IMG/VR virus record: IMGVR_UViG_3300025093_000013
Coordinates: 48,474 to 112,473 of that record
Strand: one strand, 5' to 3'
Length of the DNA: 64,000 bases
From: a virus
This document shows, one piece after another, positions 6,908 through 14,005 of the stretch (position 1 is its first letter; the number at the start of each line of letters is the position of its first letter). Under the pieces are notes generated by a model. That model saw nothing but the letters and a program-made list of their open reading frames with translations, did not search any database and was not told the origin of the DNA. The position numbers were made by a program, and so were the translations under genes.

Positions 6908-9775
6908 ATGGCAGACCAAATACCTTTAAGAATAGTTACTGTCTCAGGTCAACCCTTTATTGGAGAGTTTCAATCAGGTGACACCGTTGGAGTCGTTCAT
7001 GGTGGAACTGGTGCATCAAGTATAGCTGGTCTAAAAACCGCCTTAGACTATAACCTAACTGGTTTAGACGATGTTGCTGTAGGGTTCCCTGATGCGTTAT
7101 CAGCTAACCAAATTATTGTTTGGAACGGGACTGCTTGGGTAAACGAATACAACGACAAGACTGAGATGCGTGTTCGGAACGGCAACGAAGTTGCCATGAG
7201 CAAGGGTGATGTAATTGCCATTAAAGATTCTCAGAACGCTAATCTTGTAAATGTTATCCTAGCAGATGCATCTCAAACATCTGCTATGCCTGCTCTTGGT
7301 GTTCTTGAGCAAGACCTTGCTGTAGGTGAAGAGGGTATTGCAATTACTTTTGGCAAGGCTCAGGGTCTTAATACATCGGGTCTTACAGAAGGTGCAACTG
7401 CTTATGTGAGTCCTACAACTCCAGGGGGTATCACTACTACTAAACCCACCTCTGGAGATCACTTTATTCAAAACATAGGTATCGTTATGAGAGCAAATGC
7501 TTTTAACGGTGCTATTAAGGTTACTGGTATTGGTCGTGCTAACGATATACCTAACGCGGAGATTACGACACTATCAGGTGATGCTGATTATGTTTACATT
7601 GATGATGGTGGTGTTTGGAAAAAGATTACTCCCGCAAACCTAGGTGTAGGTAGTGGAGGTGGAGGATCCGCATCCTTATCAGGTCTAACTGACACTAATA
7701 TTTCATCTCCTTCACATAATGAATCTCTTGTTTGGACATCCTCCACAGGAGAGTGGATCAATGCTAGTGTCGCAGGTGGTGGAGGAGTAACGGATCACGG
7801 GCTACTTACAGGTCTAAGCGATAACGATCACCCACAGTATGTTCTAACTACTATCAATAATGATCTGTCAACTCTTGTAACAAACATAGAAACCTCTACA
7901 GTTGATATATCAGGTTACATAGCTGCCAATGAAACCACATGGTCAACTGACAACGATACAACAGATCACACTGCTCTGAGTAATATAGGCACAAACACTC
8001 ACGCCCAGATTGATAGTCACATAGCCTCAGGTTCTGTACACTTTACAGAAGCGAGCATTGATCATGGATCTATTGCTGGTCTAGGTGACAATGACCATCC
8101 TCAGTATGTTCTTTCTGCTACTAATAATGCTCTATCAAGCCTTGTAACGAGTGTAGAAACATCTACAGTAAGCCTTTCTAGCTATATTGCGGCTAATGAG
8201 ACTACATGGTCAACTGACAATGACACGACTGATCACACTGCCTTAAGTAATATCGGTACTAACACCCATGCTCAAATCGATAGCCATATTGCTTCAGGAT
8301 CCGTACACTTCACAGAAGCGAGTATTGACCATGGATCTATTGCTGGACTAGCAGACAATGATCACCCTCAGTATGTTCTTTCGGCAACTAACAACGATCT
8401 GTCTACGCTTGTCACTAGCGTTGAAACATCTACTGTAAGCCTTTCAAGCTATATCGCTGCTAACGAAACAACTTGGTCCACGGATAATGACACAACAGAT
8501 CATACTGCCTTAAGTAATATAGGAACTAATACCCACGCTCAGATTGATAGCCATATTGCGTCTGGGTCTGTACACTTTACAGAAGCAAGCATTGACCACG
8601 GATCTATCGCTGGTCTTGGTGATAACGATCACCCTCAATATGTTCTCTCTGCTACCAATAATGCTCTATCAAGCCTTGTAACGAGTGTAGAAACATCAAC
8701 AGTTAATCTATCTGGGTATATTGCAGCTAACGAGACAACTTGGGCTACTGATACTGACACCACTGATCACACTGCTCTAAGTAATATCGGTACTAATACA
8801 CACGCTCAGATTGATACTCATATTAGTAACCACACCACCTCAGCAAATACTTGGAATGGTACTTACCAGACGGTATTTGATAACTCGGGTAGTTGGGGTG
8901 GTGGAGGAGGAGTCACCGATCACGGCGCTTTAACGGGTCTAGCCGACAACGATCACCCGCAGTATGTGCTATCTTCTACTAACGCTGCGCTAAGTTCTCT
9001 TGTAACAGATACCACAGACGCAAGCACATTGTTCAGCGGAAACATTACTGTAACAGGAACTACTGCAACTCATATAGGAACTCTAGGAACTACTGACGCT
9101 GCTACATTCGGATTACAATCAAGCGGTAACACTTCCATAATTGCACCATCTCTAATATTGAGTGCGACTACAGCCTATCAATTCCGTAAGAATGGTAGCA
9201 CTACATTCACTGATACAGACTTCCCTCAGTCTTGTAGGGATTGGGACTCTACCTACAACACTGTTCTTAACAGTTCAGGTTCTTGGGGTGGTGGAGGCGG
9301 TGGAGGCGTAGCCGCTGGTATTACTGTTGTTAACACGGGAACAGATAATATTAACTCTACTGGTGGTGCCCTTGTTCCATTAGATGTAACCGCTGGATAT
9401 CCTGCATATGGAAGTTATGCTACAGACTTTAGTTACACTCCTGGTAATGCCTATGTAACTATCAACACAGCAGGAACTTACGAGGTAACATTTAATGTTG
9501 GTTACATTTCAACAACCACTCGATGGAACGGTGTATTAAAAATATACAAAGGTACTGGTGGAGCATCCCCAAGTGCGTGGATTGGTTATGGAGCAGGCAA
9601 GATGGGTTATGTAAGAAACTCAAGTGGTCATAACGAGTCCTCTCTAATTGTAACCTGTCTTGTAACCTGTTCCGCTAATGATACTGTAGGTGGTCATGTA
9701 ATTAACGAAGCCACTAGCGGAACATGTACTCTGGTTGCTAACGAAACATTCATGACAATTAAGAGGATGTCTTGA
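6908..9775 (+). CDS. Long tail fibre with tandem repeats and jelly-roll-like tip
   Basis: The 955-residue protein is a classic phage fibre. The N-terminal part contains the adhesin-type segment HGGTGASSIAGLKTAL. Residues 294-640 hold about four tandem units of 89 residues, each with the fibre motif D-H-G-x-x-x-G-L-x-D-N-D-H-P-Q-Y followed by a Thr-rich shaft stretch. Two Gly-rich hinges (SWGGGGG type) separate the shaft from a fifth partial unit and the C-terminal region. The last 150 residues (from about VAAGITVVNTG) form a beta-rich domain resembling TNF/C1q-like receptor-binding tips. It presumably trimerises and binds the host surface. The next gene, a LamG-like adhesin, overlaps its stop codon. 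Confidence 0.85.
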   Translation: MADQIPLRIVTVSGQPFIGEFQSGDTVGVVHGGTGASSIAGLKTALDYNLTGLDDVAVGFPDALSANQIIVWNGTAWVNEYNDKTEMRVRNGNEVAMSKGDVIAIKDSQNANLVNVILADASQTSAMPALGVLEQDLAVGEEGIAITFGKAQGLNTSGLTEGATAYVSPTTPGGITTTKPTSGDHFIQNIGIVMRANAFNGAIKVTGIGRANDIPNAEITTLSGDADYVYIDDGGVWKKITPANLGVGSGGGGSASLSGLTDTNISSPSHNESLVWTSSTGEWINASVAGGGGVTDHGLLTGLSDNDHPQYVLTTINNDLSTLVTNIETSTVDISGYIAANETTWSTDNDTTDHTALSNIGTNTHAQIDSHIASGSVHFTEASIDHGSIAGLGDNDHPQYVLSATNNALSSLVTSVETSTVSLSSYIAANETTWSTDNDTTDHTALSNIGTNTHAQIDSHIASGSVHFTEASIDHGSIAGLADNDHPQYVLSATNNDLSTLVTSVETSTVSLSSYIAANETTWSTDNDTTDHTALSNIGTNTHAQIDSHIASGSVHFTEASIDHGSIAGLGDNDHPQYVLSATNNALSSLVTSVETSTVNLSGYIAANETTWATDTDTTDHTALSNIGTNTHAQIDTHISNHTTSANTWNGTYQTVFDNSGSWGGGGGVTDHGALTGLADNDHPQYVLSSTNAALSSLVTDTTDASTLFSGNITVTGTTATHIGTLGTTDAATFGLQSSGNTSIIAPSLILSATTAYQFRKNGSTTFTDTDFPQSCRDWDSTYNTVLNSSGSWGGGGGGGVAAGITVVNTGTDNINSTGGALVPLDVTAGYPAYGSYATDFSYTPGNAYVTINTAGTYEVTFNVGYISTTTRWNGVLKIYKGTGGASPSAWIGYGAGKMGYVRNSSGHNESSLIVTCLVTCSANDTVGGHVINEATSGTCTLVANETFMTIKRMS
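7787..8827 (+). repeat. Four tandem 267-bp (89-aa) fibre repeats
   Basis: Units start at 7787, 8054, 8321 and 8588, exactly 267 bases apart, with the last unit diverging after about 240 bases. A fifth partial copy of the DHG...DNDHPQY segment lies at about 8912-9010. The encoded residues are nearly identical over long stretches, while many third codon positions differ between copies. Confidence 0.9.
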
Positions 9776-10593
9776 TGGGATATCTTGTAGACGCAAACGG
9801 TAAGTTTATTAACTCAGGTGGTAAGATTGTATTTAGACAACCTGTTACTGAATCTCCACCACCTCCTGCTTCACAAGGTACAATTCTACAAACAAACCTA
9901 CAAGCACACTTCCACGCTGGGGATTCTGCTTCTTACGGAGGAACGGGTACAACTTGGTCTGATCTGACCACAAACAACAACGATCTTACTCTGACCAACG
10001 GGCCTACTCATGTAACCAGCCCTGTCAGTGCGTTTGATTTTGATGGTACGAATGACCTCGCTAACGGTGGAGATGTTCTCGACTGGGGTACAGGAGACAT
10101 TACAATAGGTATTTGGATGAATGCTGACACGGTTACAGCAGGTTATCAATACATTCAATCCAAGTCAGCAAGAGGTAACAGTGCCAGCCGTTATGGGTGT
10201 GGTATTAACAATGCTGCTCCATTCTTCTTCGTCATGACCACGGATACTGGCGATGGTTCTATGATCTGGACAGGCTCAAGTAATGTTACTATCTCTACAT
10301 GGCACTACCTAACCTTTACTACGAACAGAGCAAATAGTCAGGTCAACATGTATATTGATGGAAGTCCTATCACAGAATCAGGTAATGCTGCCGCTGCGGA
10401 CTTAGATAGAACAGAGGGAGAGAATATTAACTCTACCTTCCCATTTTGGATTGGTGGCACACCTAACTCAGATGGTGTTAGTAACTTCTTACCATTCAAC
10501 GGTAAGGTAGCAGAGCTTCACTGGTACAACGCTCGCTTATCTGACGCACAAGTGCTATCAAACTACAACGAAACTAAGATCTTCTACACTTAA
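9775..10593 (+). CDS. LamG/concanavalin-like adhesin (272 aa)
   Basis: The ATG at 9775 overlaps the fibre stop as TGATG (a TTG three bases upstream is the alternative). After a short N-terminal segment (MGYLVDANGKFINSGGKI) and a Pro-rich linker, the rest forms a LamG-like jelly roll. Visible landmarks are LTLTNGPTHV, AFDFDGTNDLA, ITIGIWMNADT, YIDGSPI and a C-terminal AELHWYNARLSDAQV, all typical of this fold. Such domains bind glycans and are common at phage fibre tips. It is probably an accessory receptor-binding protein. Its TAA overlaps the stop of the convergent small gene. Confidence 0.75.
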   Translation: MGYLVDANGKFINSGGKIVFRQPVTESPPPPASQGTILQTNLQAHFHAGDSASYGGTGTTWSDLTTNNNDLTLTNGPTHVTSPVSAFDFDGTNDLANGGDVLDWGTGDITIGIWMNADTVTAGYQYIQSKSARGNSASRYGCGINNAAPFFFVMTTDTGDGSMIWTGSSNVTISTWHYLTFTTNRANSQVNMYIDGSPITESGNAAAADLDRTEGENINSTFPFWIGGTPNSDGVSNFLPFNGKVAELHWYNARLSDAQVLSNYNETKIFYT

Positions 10594-12179: not shown

Positions 12180-12202
12180 CTTTATTATAGACTATAATAA
12201 AG
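12180..12202. promoter_or_regulatory. Palindromic divergent promoter element
   Basis: CTTTATTATAG, one central A, then CTATAATAAAG: a perfect 11-bp inverted repeat lying between divergent genes. Each arm reads TATAATA toward its own gene. For the leftward helicase the predicted start site falls at its ATG; for the rightward gene it falls about ten bases before ATG 12215. Confidence 0.6.
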
Positions 12203-12214
12203 CGGAGTTTTTAT

Positions 12215-12925
12215 ATGCCAGCAGCAAAGAAGAAAACTGTAGACGAGATGGTGGATGACATCTTAGCTGATGTCCCCTACAATGCACAAAATACTGTAAC
12301 TCTCCCCTCAGGTGGGGTTGCTACACTAAGACCCATTACCTTTGAAGAAGAGAAGCAGATTCTTTCCCTGTCAAAGAAAGGAGTAGATCCTTCCCAAGTG
12401 CTTCTTGAAAACTGTGTATCTGATATTGATAAATCAGATATCCTCCTAGTTGACAAGATATATCTTTTGTTCAAGCTTAGAGAATTATCTTTTGGTTCTG
12501 TTTACAAGTTTGTTGTTGGATGCCCTTCTTGCCACCAAGAAAACAGGATCTCTGTTGACCTAAACGACATGCCTGTAGTTTCTCTGGAAGACATGGGTAG
12601 GGAAGTGGAGATACAGCTTCCAATGTGTAAGAAGCCTGCTAAGGTAAAGCTCGCCTCAATGAGTGACGAGGTTTACATGTCAGACCCTGAGCTTCTGATG
12701 GATAATCTTTGGAGATTTATCATCAGCATCAATGATGTGGAAAATGACATGGTTATCCAGAAGGCTATCAAAAAACTTCCTGCGGGGGACATTAACACCA
12801 TAATGTCAACTGTAATGTGCGAGGGGTACGGTCTAACCACTGAAATCCGTGTCCTCTGCTCTCACTGCGGCCACGACTCAGTGATGGAGTTGCCTCTAAA
12901 TAAAAATTTTTTCTCAGCGAGCTAG
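12215..12925 (+). CDS. 26: Baseplate hub/tail chaperone zinc protein (T4 gp26-like)
   Basis: The 236-residue protein matches the T4 gp26 (T4_baseplate) family in outline: an N-terminal TVTLPSGGVATLRPIT strand region, a helical KLRELSFGSVYKF segment, and two Cys pairs, CPSCHQEN (about residues 105-112) and CSHCGHDS (about 213-220), that could bind zinc. gp26 takes part in assembly of the T4 baseplate hub and is a little shorter (208 aa). The zero frame ends at TAG 12923-12925. Eleven bases before that stop there is a slippery run where the -1 frame opens, so a longer frameshifted product of about 298 residues is likely. A GGAG lies close before ATG 12215. Confidence 0.8.
   Translation: MPAAKKKTVDEMVDDILADVPYNAQNTVTLPSGGVATLRPITFEEEKQILSLSKKGVDPSQVLLENCVSDIDKSDILLVDKIYLLFKLRELSFGSVYKFVVGCPSCHQENRISVDLNDMPVVSLEDMGREVEIQLPMCKKPAKVKLASMSDEVYMSDPELLMDNLWRFIISINDVENDMVIQKAIKKLPAGDINTIMSTVMCEGYGLTTEIRVLCSHCGHDSVMELPLNKNFFSAS
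12904..12913 (+). promoter_or_regulatory. Candidate -1 ribosomal frameshift site
   Basis: Zero-frame codons AAT TTT TTC give two overlapping X-XXY-YYZ heptamers: A-AAT-TTT (12904-12910) and T-TTT-TTC (12907-12913). A Shine-Dalgarno-like GGAG lies at 12886-12889, 14 bases upstream, a distance at which such elements stimulate -1 slippage in bacteria. No strong downstream hairpin is obvious. Confidence 0.65.
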
Positions 12926-13110
12926 AGGAAAACAATCTAGAAAATCTATTTAGAGAAGCCTATATACTTGTTAGAAGGTGTAAAGTCCCCTACAGCGATG
13001 TAAAAACTATGGATCGCCAAGAAAGGGGCTTCTTCTTGGGTTTCCTCAAAGAGGAACTCATGGCTGAGGAGGAATATATAAATGAAGCTAAACGGGGTAG
13101 AGGTCGTTGA
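12904..13110 (+). CDS. -1 frame extension of the gp26-like protein (gp51 position)
   Basis: A -1 frame stop (TAA) lies at 12901-12903, and from 12904 the frame is open to TGA 13108-13110. Before the internal ATG about 35 codons in, it has no ATG, GTG or TTG, so the whole segment is reached only by frameshifting from the gp26-like gene. It encodes a charged helical peptide with SELEENNLENLFREA, RRCKVPYSDV and MDRQERGFFLGFLKEEL. The gp26-T arrangement resembles the G/GT tail-assembly chaperones of siphophages, and gene 51, another hub-assembly factor, is associated with gene 26 in T4. Homology to gp51 (249 aa in T4) is not claimed. The end overlaps the next gene by 29 bases. Confidence 0.7.
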   Translation, partial: KFFLSELEENNLENLFREAYILVRRCKVPYSDVKTMDRQERGFFLGFLKEELMAEEEYINEAKRGRGR

Positions 13111-14005
13111 GAGACAGAATCAACCAGGGGTTTTGAGCAGAAACGCCCTTAGATTAAATCTATACAATAATGGAACTTACTTTGATCCTTATGCAGTAAG
13201 CTCTGTAAGTCTATTTTTCAAGAAGGAGAATGTTTCCCCAAGCTCTGTTCTTGCTTCAGGGACTCAGCTTATCTCTGATTCAGCGGCATCTTCCGTTAAG
13301 TTCAGATGGAGATCAGATAACGCTAATGGGTATGTGGCTGAGTCTGAATTCTCTACAGACGCTTCCGATGCATCTGGAGTTTATCGAACTGATGTGGGTC
13401 GCTTTGTAGTTGTCCTAGACGGAACACAGACCGTATCAAGTCTGGATAGAAGCGGGACCACAATAAAAAATACCGCCAGCAGTGTCGGTGATTACATTGA
13501 TGTATGGACCATAAAAACAGCCGCATCCGCTGACTGGAAAGTCTTTATCAATAACTTTACTCTGTTTCAAGACAACATTATAGCGATCACTGAGCCTCTT
13601 ATGATGAAGTCTAGAACCAGCCTAATGCCAAACAAGGTTAGACTGGATGAGGTTGTAGAACTAAAGGTTCCTGTTGAAATTACTGTTACCAACAGAAACA
13701 TAGACGAGAGTATCAAGAACGCTCTCAGCCAAGGAGTATTAACGGAACCTCAGTTTAGGATCCTCAAGCACAACGAAGATAGTAATCTTCCCGCTAGAGT
13801 AGAGGTCTCTGGATACTCAGCTACTTCTTCTCTGGTCGAGACTACCTCGGATAACACCATGATCTTCAAGCTAGACACTAGTGTCCTTACAGACGGTAGT
13901 ATTACTGACCTTGGAGCAGGGACAGGCACCTACTCAGTTGAGGCCAAGTACACTCTCCTCAACGAAACTATCATCTCACCGATGATGTATTTCACAGTCC
14001 GCTGA
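13082..14005 (+). CDS. Beta-rich virion protein, unassigned (307 aa)
   Basis: GAGGAGG nine bases before ATG 13082 gives a strong start. The start lies inside the 3' end of the -1 frameshift ORF, so expression is probably coupled to the hub-assembly gene. The protein is beta-rich with many Ser, Thr and Asn (RLNLYNNGTYFDPYAVS near the N-terminus) and lacks signal peptide or membrane helices. It looks like an Ig-like or baseplate structural protein: a middle strand-rich part (FVVVLDGTQTV) and a C-terminal domain ending in MMYFTVR. Position next to gp26 suggests a hub or baseplate part, but no T4 counterpart is recognised. Its 3' end overlaps the convergent primase gene by 14 bases. Confidence 0.6.
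   Translation: MKLNGVEVVERQNQPGVLSRNALRLNLYNNGTYFDPYAVSSVSLFFKKENVSPSSVLASGTQLISDSAASSVKFRWRSDNANGYVAESEFSTDASDASGVYRTDVGRFVVVLDGTQTVSSLDRSGTTIKNTASSVGDYIDVWTIKTAASADWKVFINNFTLFQDNIIAITEPLMMKSRTSLMPNKVRLDEVVELKVPVEITVTNRNIDESIKNALSQGVLTEPQFRILKHNEDSNLPARVEVSGYSATSSLVETTSDNTMIFKLDTSVLTDGSITDLGAGTGTYSVEAKYTLLNETIISPMMYFTVR

Follow-up and report, generated by a model that had tools for sequence, protein, structure and literature searches.

A gp26-like gene and its −1 frame extension very probably encode, by frameshifting, the short and long tail-assembly chaperones of a T4-type phage

The frameshifted tail-assembly chaperones of siphophages, with lambda gpG/gpGT as the example, are conserved (Xu, Hendrix and Duda 2004, as related in the review PMC5009743), and in lambda the work is divided, with G binding the tape measure and T recruiting tube subunits (PMC5009743). 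The chaperone genes of T4-type phages, gp26/gp51, were identified by Vladimirov, Gautam and Davidson (2022), as cited in PMC10885494 and PMC12846349; the title of that study speaks of a mechanism other than frameshifting. One paper citing it (PMC10885494 or PMC12846349) describes slippery sequences of the poly-T kind as known from chaperone genes of T4-like phages. For Vandenendeviridae and Andersonviridae, comparative genomics has pointed to a −1 frameshifted chaperone with a GTTTTT motif (PMC12846349). An initial annotation of the DNA considered here, made from its letters alone, proposed a −1 programmed frameshift at the end of a gp26-like gene and held that it may be new. This was too strong a claim, because frameshifted chaperones are known and T4-type chaperone genes had, going by the citations of Vladimirov et al. 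(2022), already been identified.

Our window (the whole stretch of DNA analysed, 64,000 nucleotides) belongs to a record of 112,473 bases from an uncultured virus whose terminase, portal, major head protein and baseplate wedge genes are of T4 type. We are highly confident that the locus described below uses −1 frameshifting to produce both members, short and long, of the G/GT-like tail-assembly chaperone pair of T4-type phages. The locus comprises the following features, all on the plus strand:

12215..12925, plus strand: gp26-like gene for the putative short chaperone form (TAC-N), 236 aa, stop TAG at 12923-12925
12901..12903, plus strand: TAA of the −1 frame just 5′ of the slippery run, from the sequence
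12904..12910, plus strand: slippery heptamer A AAT TTT, the upstream one of an overlapping pair, in frame, from the sequence
12907..12913, plus strand: slippery heptamer T TTT TTC, at which the shift probably takes place, from sequence, conservation and a codon bias test
12913..13110, plus strand: −1 extension, the gp51 C-terminal domain (PHROG 634), which would give a 298-aa long form (TAC-NC), stop TGA at 13108-13110
13082..14005, plus strand: next gene, 307 aa, start ATG at 13082, the first 29 nt shared with the end of the −1 frame

The last zero-frame codons of the gp26-like gene are AAT AAA AAT TTT TTC TCA GCG AGC TAG. Since the TAA at 12901-12903 abuts the slippery run, no entry into the −1 frame is possible upstream of the run; the frame is open from 12904 to 13107 (68 codons) and has its first ATG at codon 36 (13009), with neither GTG nor TTG before it. 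A slip on T TTT TTC yields a joined product of exactly 298 aa. On re-reading the sequence, we found the overlapping heptamers, TAA, stops and other coordinates of the initial annotation correct to the base, and its further statements, namely that the −1 frame opens at the run, stays open for 68 codons with no start in the first 35, ends inside the next gene and would add a product of about 298 aa to the one of 236 aa, were borne out as well. In-frame heptamers of the general form X XXY YYH make up 0.19% of codons across the window's genes, and T TTT TTY occurs in frame twice in the 19,216 codons of these genes.

The product of the gp26-like gene belongs to the Pfam family T4_baseplate (PF12322, E 4e-20, above the curated cut-off), of which it is the only representative in the 112-kb record, and matches PHROG 150 (baseplate hub) with E 1.8e-23. 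An AlphaFold2 model of the short form (pLDDT 89) has gp26-type baseplate hub proteins as its top viral fold matches. The −1 peptide, in turn, is the C-terminal domain of T4 gp51. Taken alone, the extension of the window gives a weak match (E 0.01-0.06) to PHROG 634 (baseplate hub assembly catalyst, gp51), this being the only place in the 112-kb record where the family is matched; the extensions of 32 of 43 relatives match the same family, with a best E of 5e-6, and hhalign places the extension at the C-terminus of T4-type gp51 (E 2e-6). The extension is modeled by AlphaFold2 as a helical domain (pLDDT 90), and Gp51 of P-HM1 is its second best viral fold match (E 0.06, probability 0.99). A search against the sequences of solved structures returned for the extension only protein A chains, over 23 residues of the terminal helix, which we took to be compositional and set aside.

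The −1 frame is under purifying selection as protein. Between the extensions of the window and of one relative (L001), dN is 0.128 and dS 1.244, giving a dN/dS of about 0.10; the median dN/dS over 245 comparable pairs, which are not independent of each other, is 0.15. Counted by codon position of the −1 frame, changes in the extension number 6029 at third positions, against 3011 and 1776 elsewhere.

Conservation of the arrangement extends far beyond close relatives. Both slippery run and −1 frame recur in two close IMG/VR relatives (82% and 55% identity). A search by alignment turned up 80 loci and, once duplicates had been removed, 62 distinct loci of the −1 type, the window included. All 62 have T TTT TTY in frame together with the −1 frame, and in 51 of them the heptamer starts exactly 16 nt before the stop of the short form. 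The same holds, as in-frame T TTT TTN plus −1 frame, for all eleven named T4-superfamily phages tested (Syn9, P-SSM4, S-PM2, KVP40, DLP6, Melnitz, AF3, Ah1, Astolliot, BUCT-ZZ01 and S-CRM01), where the run lies 7-10 nt before the short stop. Throughout the T4 superfamily, run and −1 frame persist even where protein identity has fallen to about 25-40%. The upstream heptamer A AAT TTT is less conserved than T TTT TTC, being present in most relatives rather than all. At the run, the two Phe codons are invariably TTT TTY and the preceding codon invariably ends in T, even as its amino acid changes. With the codon usage of each individual gene as the expectation, this codon choice has a joint probability of about 10^-9.5 for 15 representatives below 40% identity and about 10^-33 over 72 sequences; both figures assume independent sequences, to which only the representatives approximate. 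Searches of a phage collection at the DNA level and of genome contigs returned no match. In a divergent group of seven loci (L094-L099 and L101), the same T TTT TTC stands 40-43 nt before the short stop, so that the tail specific to their short form is longer, and a further locus (L008, LR756511) is similar.

Not all loci use the −1 frame. In SP-15 (L005), LIS04 (L006), GXN1 (L004), two Streptomyces phages (L007/L010) and L009, L020 and L100, the extension lies in the other shifted frame, +1 (or −2). SP-15, LIS04 and GXN1 have in common NCC CGA TTY just 5′ of the short stop, which may be a candidate +1 shift site.

The alternative that survives best, although we regard it as quite improbable, is that the −1 segment is a separate small gene, annotated elsewhere as a short "gp51", with its own start and possibly coupled to the end of the gp26-like gene. 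It is annotated so in Syn9, P-SSM4, S-PM2, KVP40, DLP6 and others, and the window does offer an ATG at 13009. Starting there, however, would lose the most conserved part of the domain (LFREAYILV), and both homology and open frame extend back to the heptamer, upstream of the annotated starts. Moreover, in 41 of the 62 loci the first 20 codons of the extension hold no ATG, GTG or TTG, and 58 of 62 have no ATG there. A separate gene would also leave the bias towards TTT TTY unexplained, and T4 itself has this domain joined to a gp26-like protein. The initial annotation had named two findings that would speak against a frameshift, an extension with a start of its own and a run or −1 frame not kept in relatives; as it turns out, a usable start is usually absent, and run and frame are kept in the 62 uncultured loci and the eleven named phages.

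Even less probable, in our view, is transcriptional slippage, in which RNA polymerase would add an extra U on the T run and the −1 product would be read from the altered transcript. The run is indeed homopolymeric and reaches 7-8 T in some relatives, but most relatives, like the window, have exactly six T ended by C. A six-T run is shorter than those usually needed for RNA polymerase slippage. The T preceding TTT TTY is kept, as re-pairing of tRNAs predicts, although a requirement for a longer T run predicts it likewise. Finally, we give a negligible probability to a run and an open frame that came about by chance towards the end of an ordinary gp26-like gene. Any AT-rich gene yields such runs at a low rate, but chance is contradicted by conservation to about 25-40% protein identity and by purifying selection in the −1 frame.

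Ribosomal −1 frameshifting is by far the most probable reading. The occurrence of the slip, its rate, its ribosomal nature and the binding roles of the products we infer as follows. Most ribosomes would stop at 12923 and release the 236-aa gp26-like short form. On T TTT TTC, a minority would move back by one base, the tRNA-Phe in the P site and that in the A site re-pairing with TTT and TTT; these ribosomes would go on to read CTC (12913-12915), AGC, GAG and so forth, finishing at 13108. The resulting long form would have 298 aa, the last 65 being the gp51 C-terminal domain, and the peptide across its junction is predicted to read ..NKNFFLSELEEN.. If lambda G/GT is a guide, the N-terminal part common to both forms may bind the tape-measure protein and the extension may recruit tail-tube subunits, with the short:long ratio set by the frequency of slipping.

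How the locus compares with the described systems can now be specified. As in lambda gpG/gpGT, there would be a short protein and a rarer −1 extension, the shift site falls just before the short stop and the extension lacks its own start. The likeness to G/GT, already put forward in the initial annotation, gains substance from the identity of the parts, the short form being gp26-like and the extension the gp51 C-terminal domain. Unlike in lambda, the next gene (13082-14005) is not a recognisable tape-measure gene: it has no family match. In SP-15 and LIS04, annotation places the tape-measure gene immediately downstream of the chaperone gene. We found no sequence similarity to the lambda chaperones and no match in a sequence search of the PDB set; the only hint from solved structures comes from the HK97 chaperone 2ob9, whose fold is matched weakly (prob 0.28, E 1.2). 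Vandenendeviridae and Andersonviridae are other phage families than that of the window, with a described arrangement that is alike: in these myophages, too, the short chaperone gene ends at a poly-T run on which a −1 shift is placed.

The short form is homologous to T4 gp26 and the extension to the C-terminal domain of gp51; however, genes 26 and 51 of T4 are separate paralogues lying on opposite strands of its record (26 minus, 51 plus), with gp51 in one frame, whereas the window has one gene and a −1 shift. T4 gp26 (208 aa) matches PHROG 150 but not PHROG 634. In T4 gp51 (249 aa), the PHROG 150 match spans the length of the protein and a PHROG 634 match covers residues 147-246, and the two proteins align to each other with E 2e-6 in a single comparison. 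T4 gp51 therefore looks like a gp26-like protein plus the extension, so that T4 would carry the short and long forms as two genes. Among 18 records scanned, T4, 44RR, Kpn6N and EC-F2 have two PF12322 genes and gp51 in a single frame. The other 14 have one such gene, and 13 of these show the −1 arrangement (those of the window, of L031 and of the eleven named phages), SP-15 with its +1/−2 frame being the fourteenth.

In the public records of most one-gene phages, the extension is listed as a separate short gp51 or small gene. The cyanophages and vibriophage with gp26 and a short "gp51" (Syn9, P-SSM4, S-PM2, S-CRM01 and KVP40) have T TTT TTN and the −1 frame as in the window, but are annotated with two separate genes and have low sequence similarity to it. 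In Syn9, the match to the gp51 family starts at 7185, adjoining the heptamer and 63 nt upstream of the annotated gp51 start. Examples of short gp51 entries are NC_008296 7248-7391, NC_006820 151190-151363 and NC_005083 186612-186779. It seems that these short genes are frameshift extensions to which arbitrary starts were assigned. Cyanophage gp51 has been noted to lack about its first 200 residues (Sullivan et al. 2010, PMC3037559); this short protein corresponds to the extension, and the residues would be missing because it is reached by frameshifting.

If this reading is correct, the classical "baseplate hub" genes 26 and 51 of T4 are tied to the short/long chaperone design of frameshifting phages. 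A frameshift would account for the "truncated" gp51 of many T4-type phages, imply mis-annotation of many deposited gp51 genes, which would be frameshift extensions, and show how phages lacking T4's separate genes 26 and 51 can make both proteins. With the same short/long pair made in two ways within one phage superfamily, the role of the ratio becomes directly testable.

Signals that might stimulate the shift were sought on both sides of the heptamer. The GGAG noted in the initial annotation is indeed present at 12886-12889, 14 nt 5′ of 12904, but a role as stimulator finds no support, since Shine-Dalgarno-like 4-mers upstream of the heptamer are not enriched (14/73 against a background of 21.6%). 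The RNA following the heptamer of the window folds no better than shuffled sequences (z 0.2). The downstream RNA does fold better than shuffles in KVP40 (z −4.5), L047 (−3.2), DLP6 (−2.8) and L031 (−2.3). A downstream stem of some relatives, CUAGAAGAAG/CUUCUUCUAG, in which 67.8% of cells pair, was rejected, its covariation being no better than in shuffles, and the RNAalifold consensus for the downstream region of relatives was empty. Codon-level conservation did single out one element:

12955..12966, plus strand: GAAGCCTATATA, codons GAA GCC TAT ATA of the −1 frame, 42 nt 3′ of the heptamer

Among 30 representatives below 65% identity, its codons are kept as ATA in 28/28, GCC in 27/29 and GAA in 21/23 cases, and ATA and GCC top the whole gene in codon conservation, the slip site apart, with which the element is on a par. 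The element is possibly an RNA signal or another nucleic-acid element. A bolder scenario, which we offer tentatively and consider rather doubtful as a whole, would have the single-gene −1 frameshift widespread and possibly ancestral in the T4 superfamily and replaced in T4 and its close relatives by duplication into gp26/gp51. In the uncultured clade, a downstream RNA signal of a new type, GAAGCCTAYATA, lying about 42 nt past the slip site, would tune the shift.

Two further observations concern the neighborhood of the gp26-like gene. A TTG-start open reading frame at 9772-10593 (273 aa), similar to the virion structural protein families PHROG 24074 and 8510, overlaps the end of a 955-aa gene by 4 nt. 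Divergent genes are separated by a perfect palindrome:

12183..12199, no strand assigned: palindrome TATTATAGACTATAATA, from the sequence, between the minus-strand helicase gene and the chaperone gene

This palindrome is possibly a candidate pair of divergent late-type promoters.
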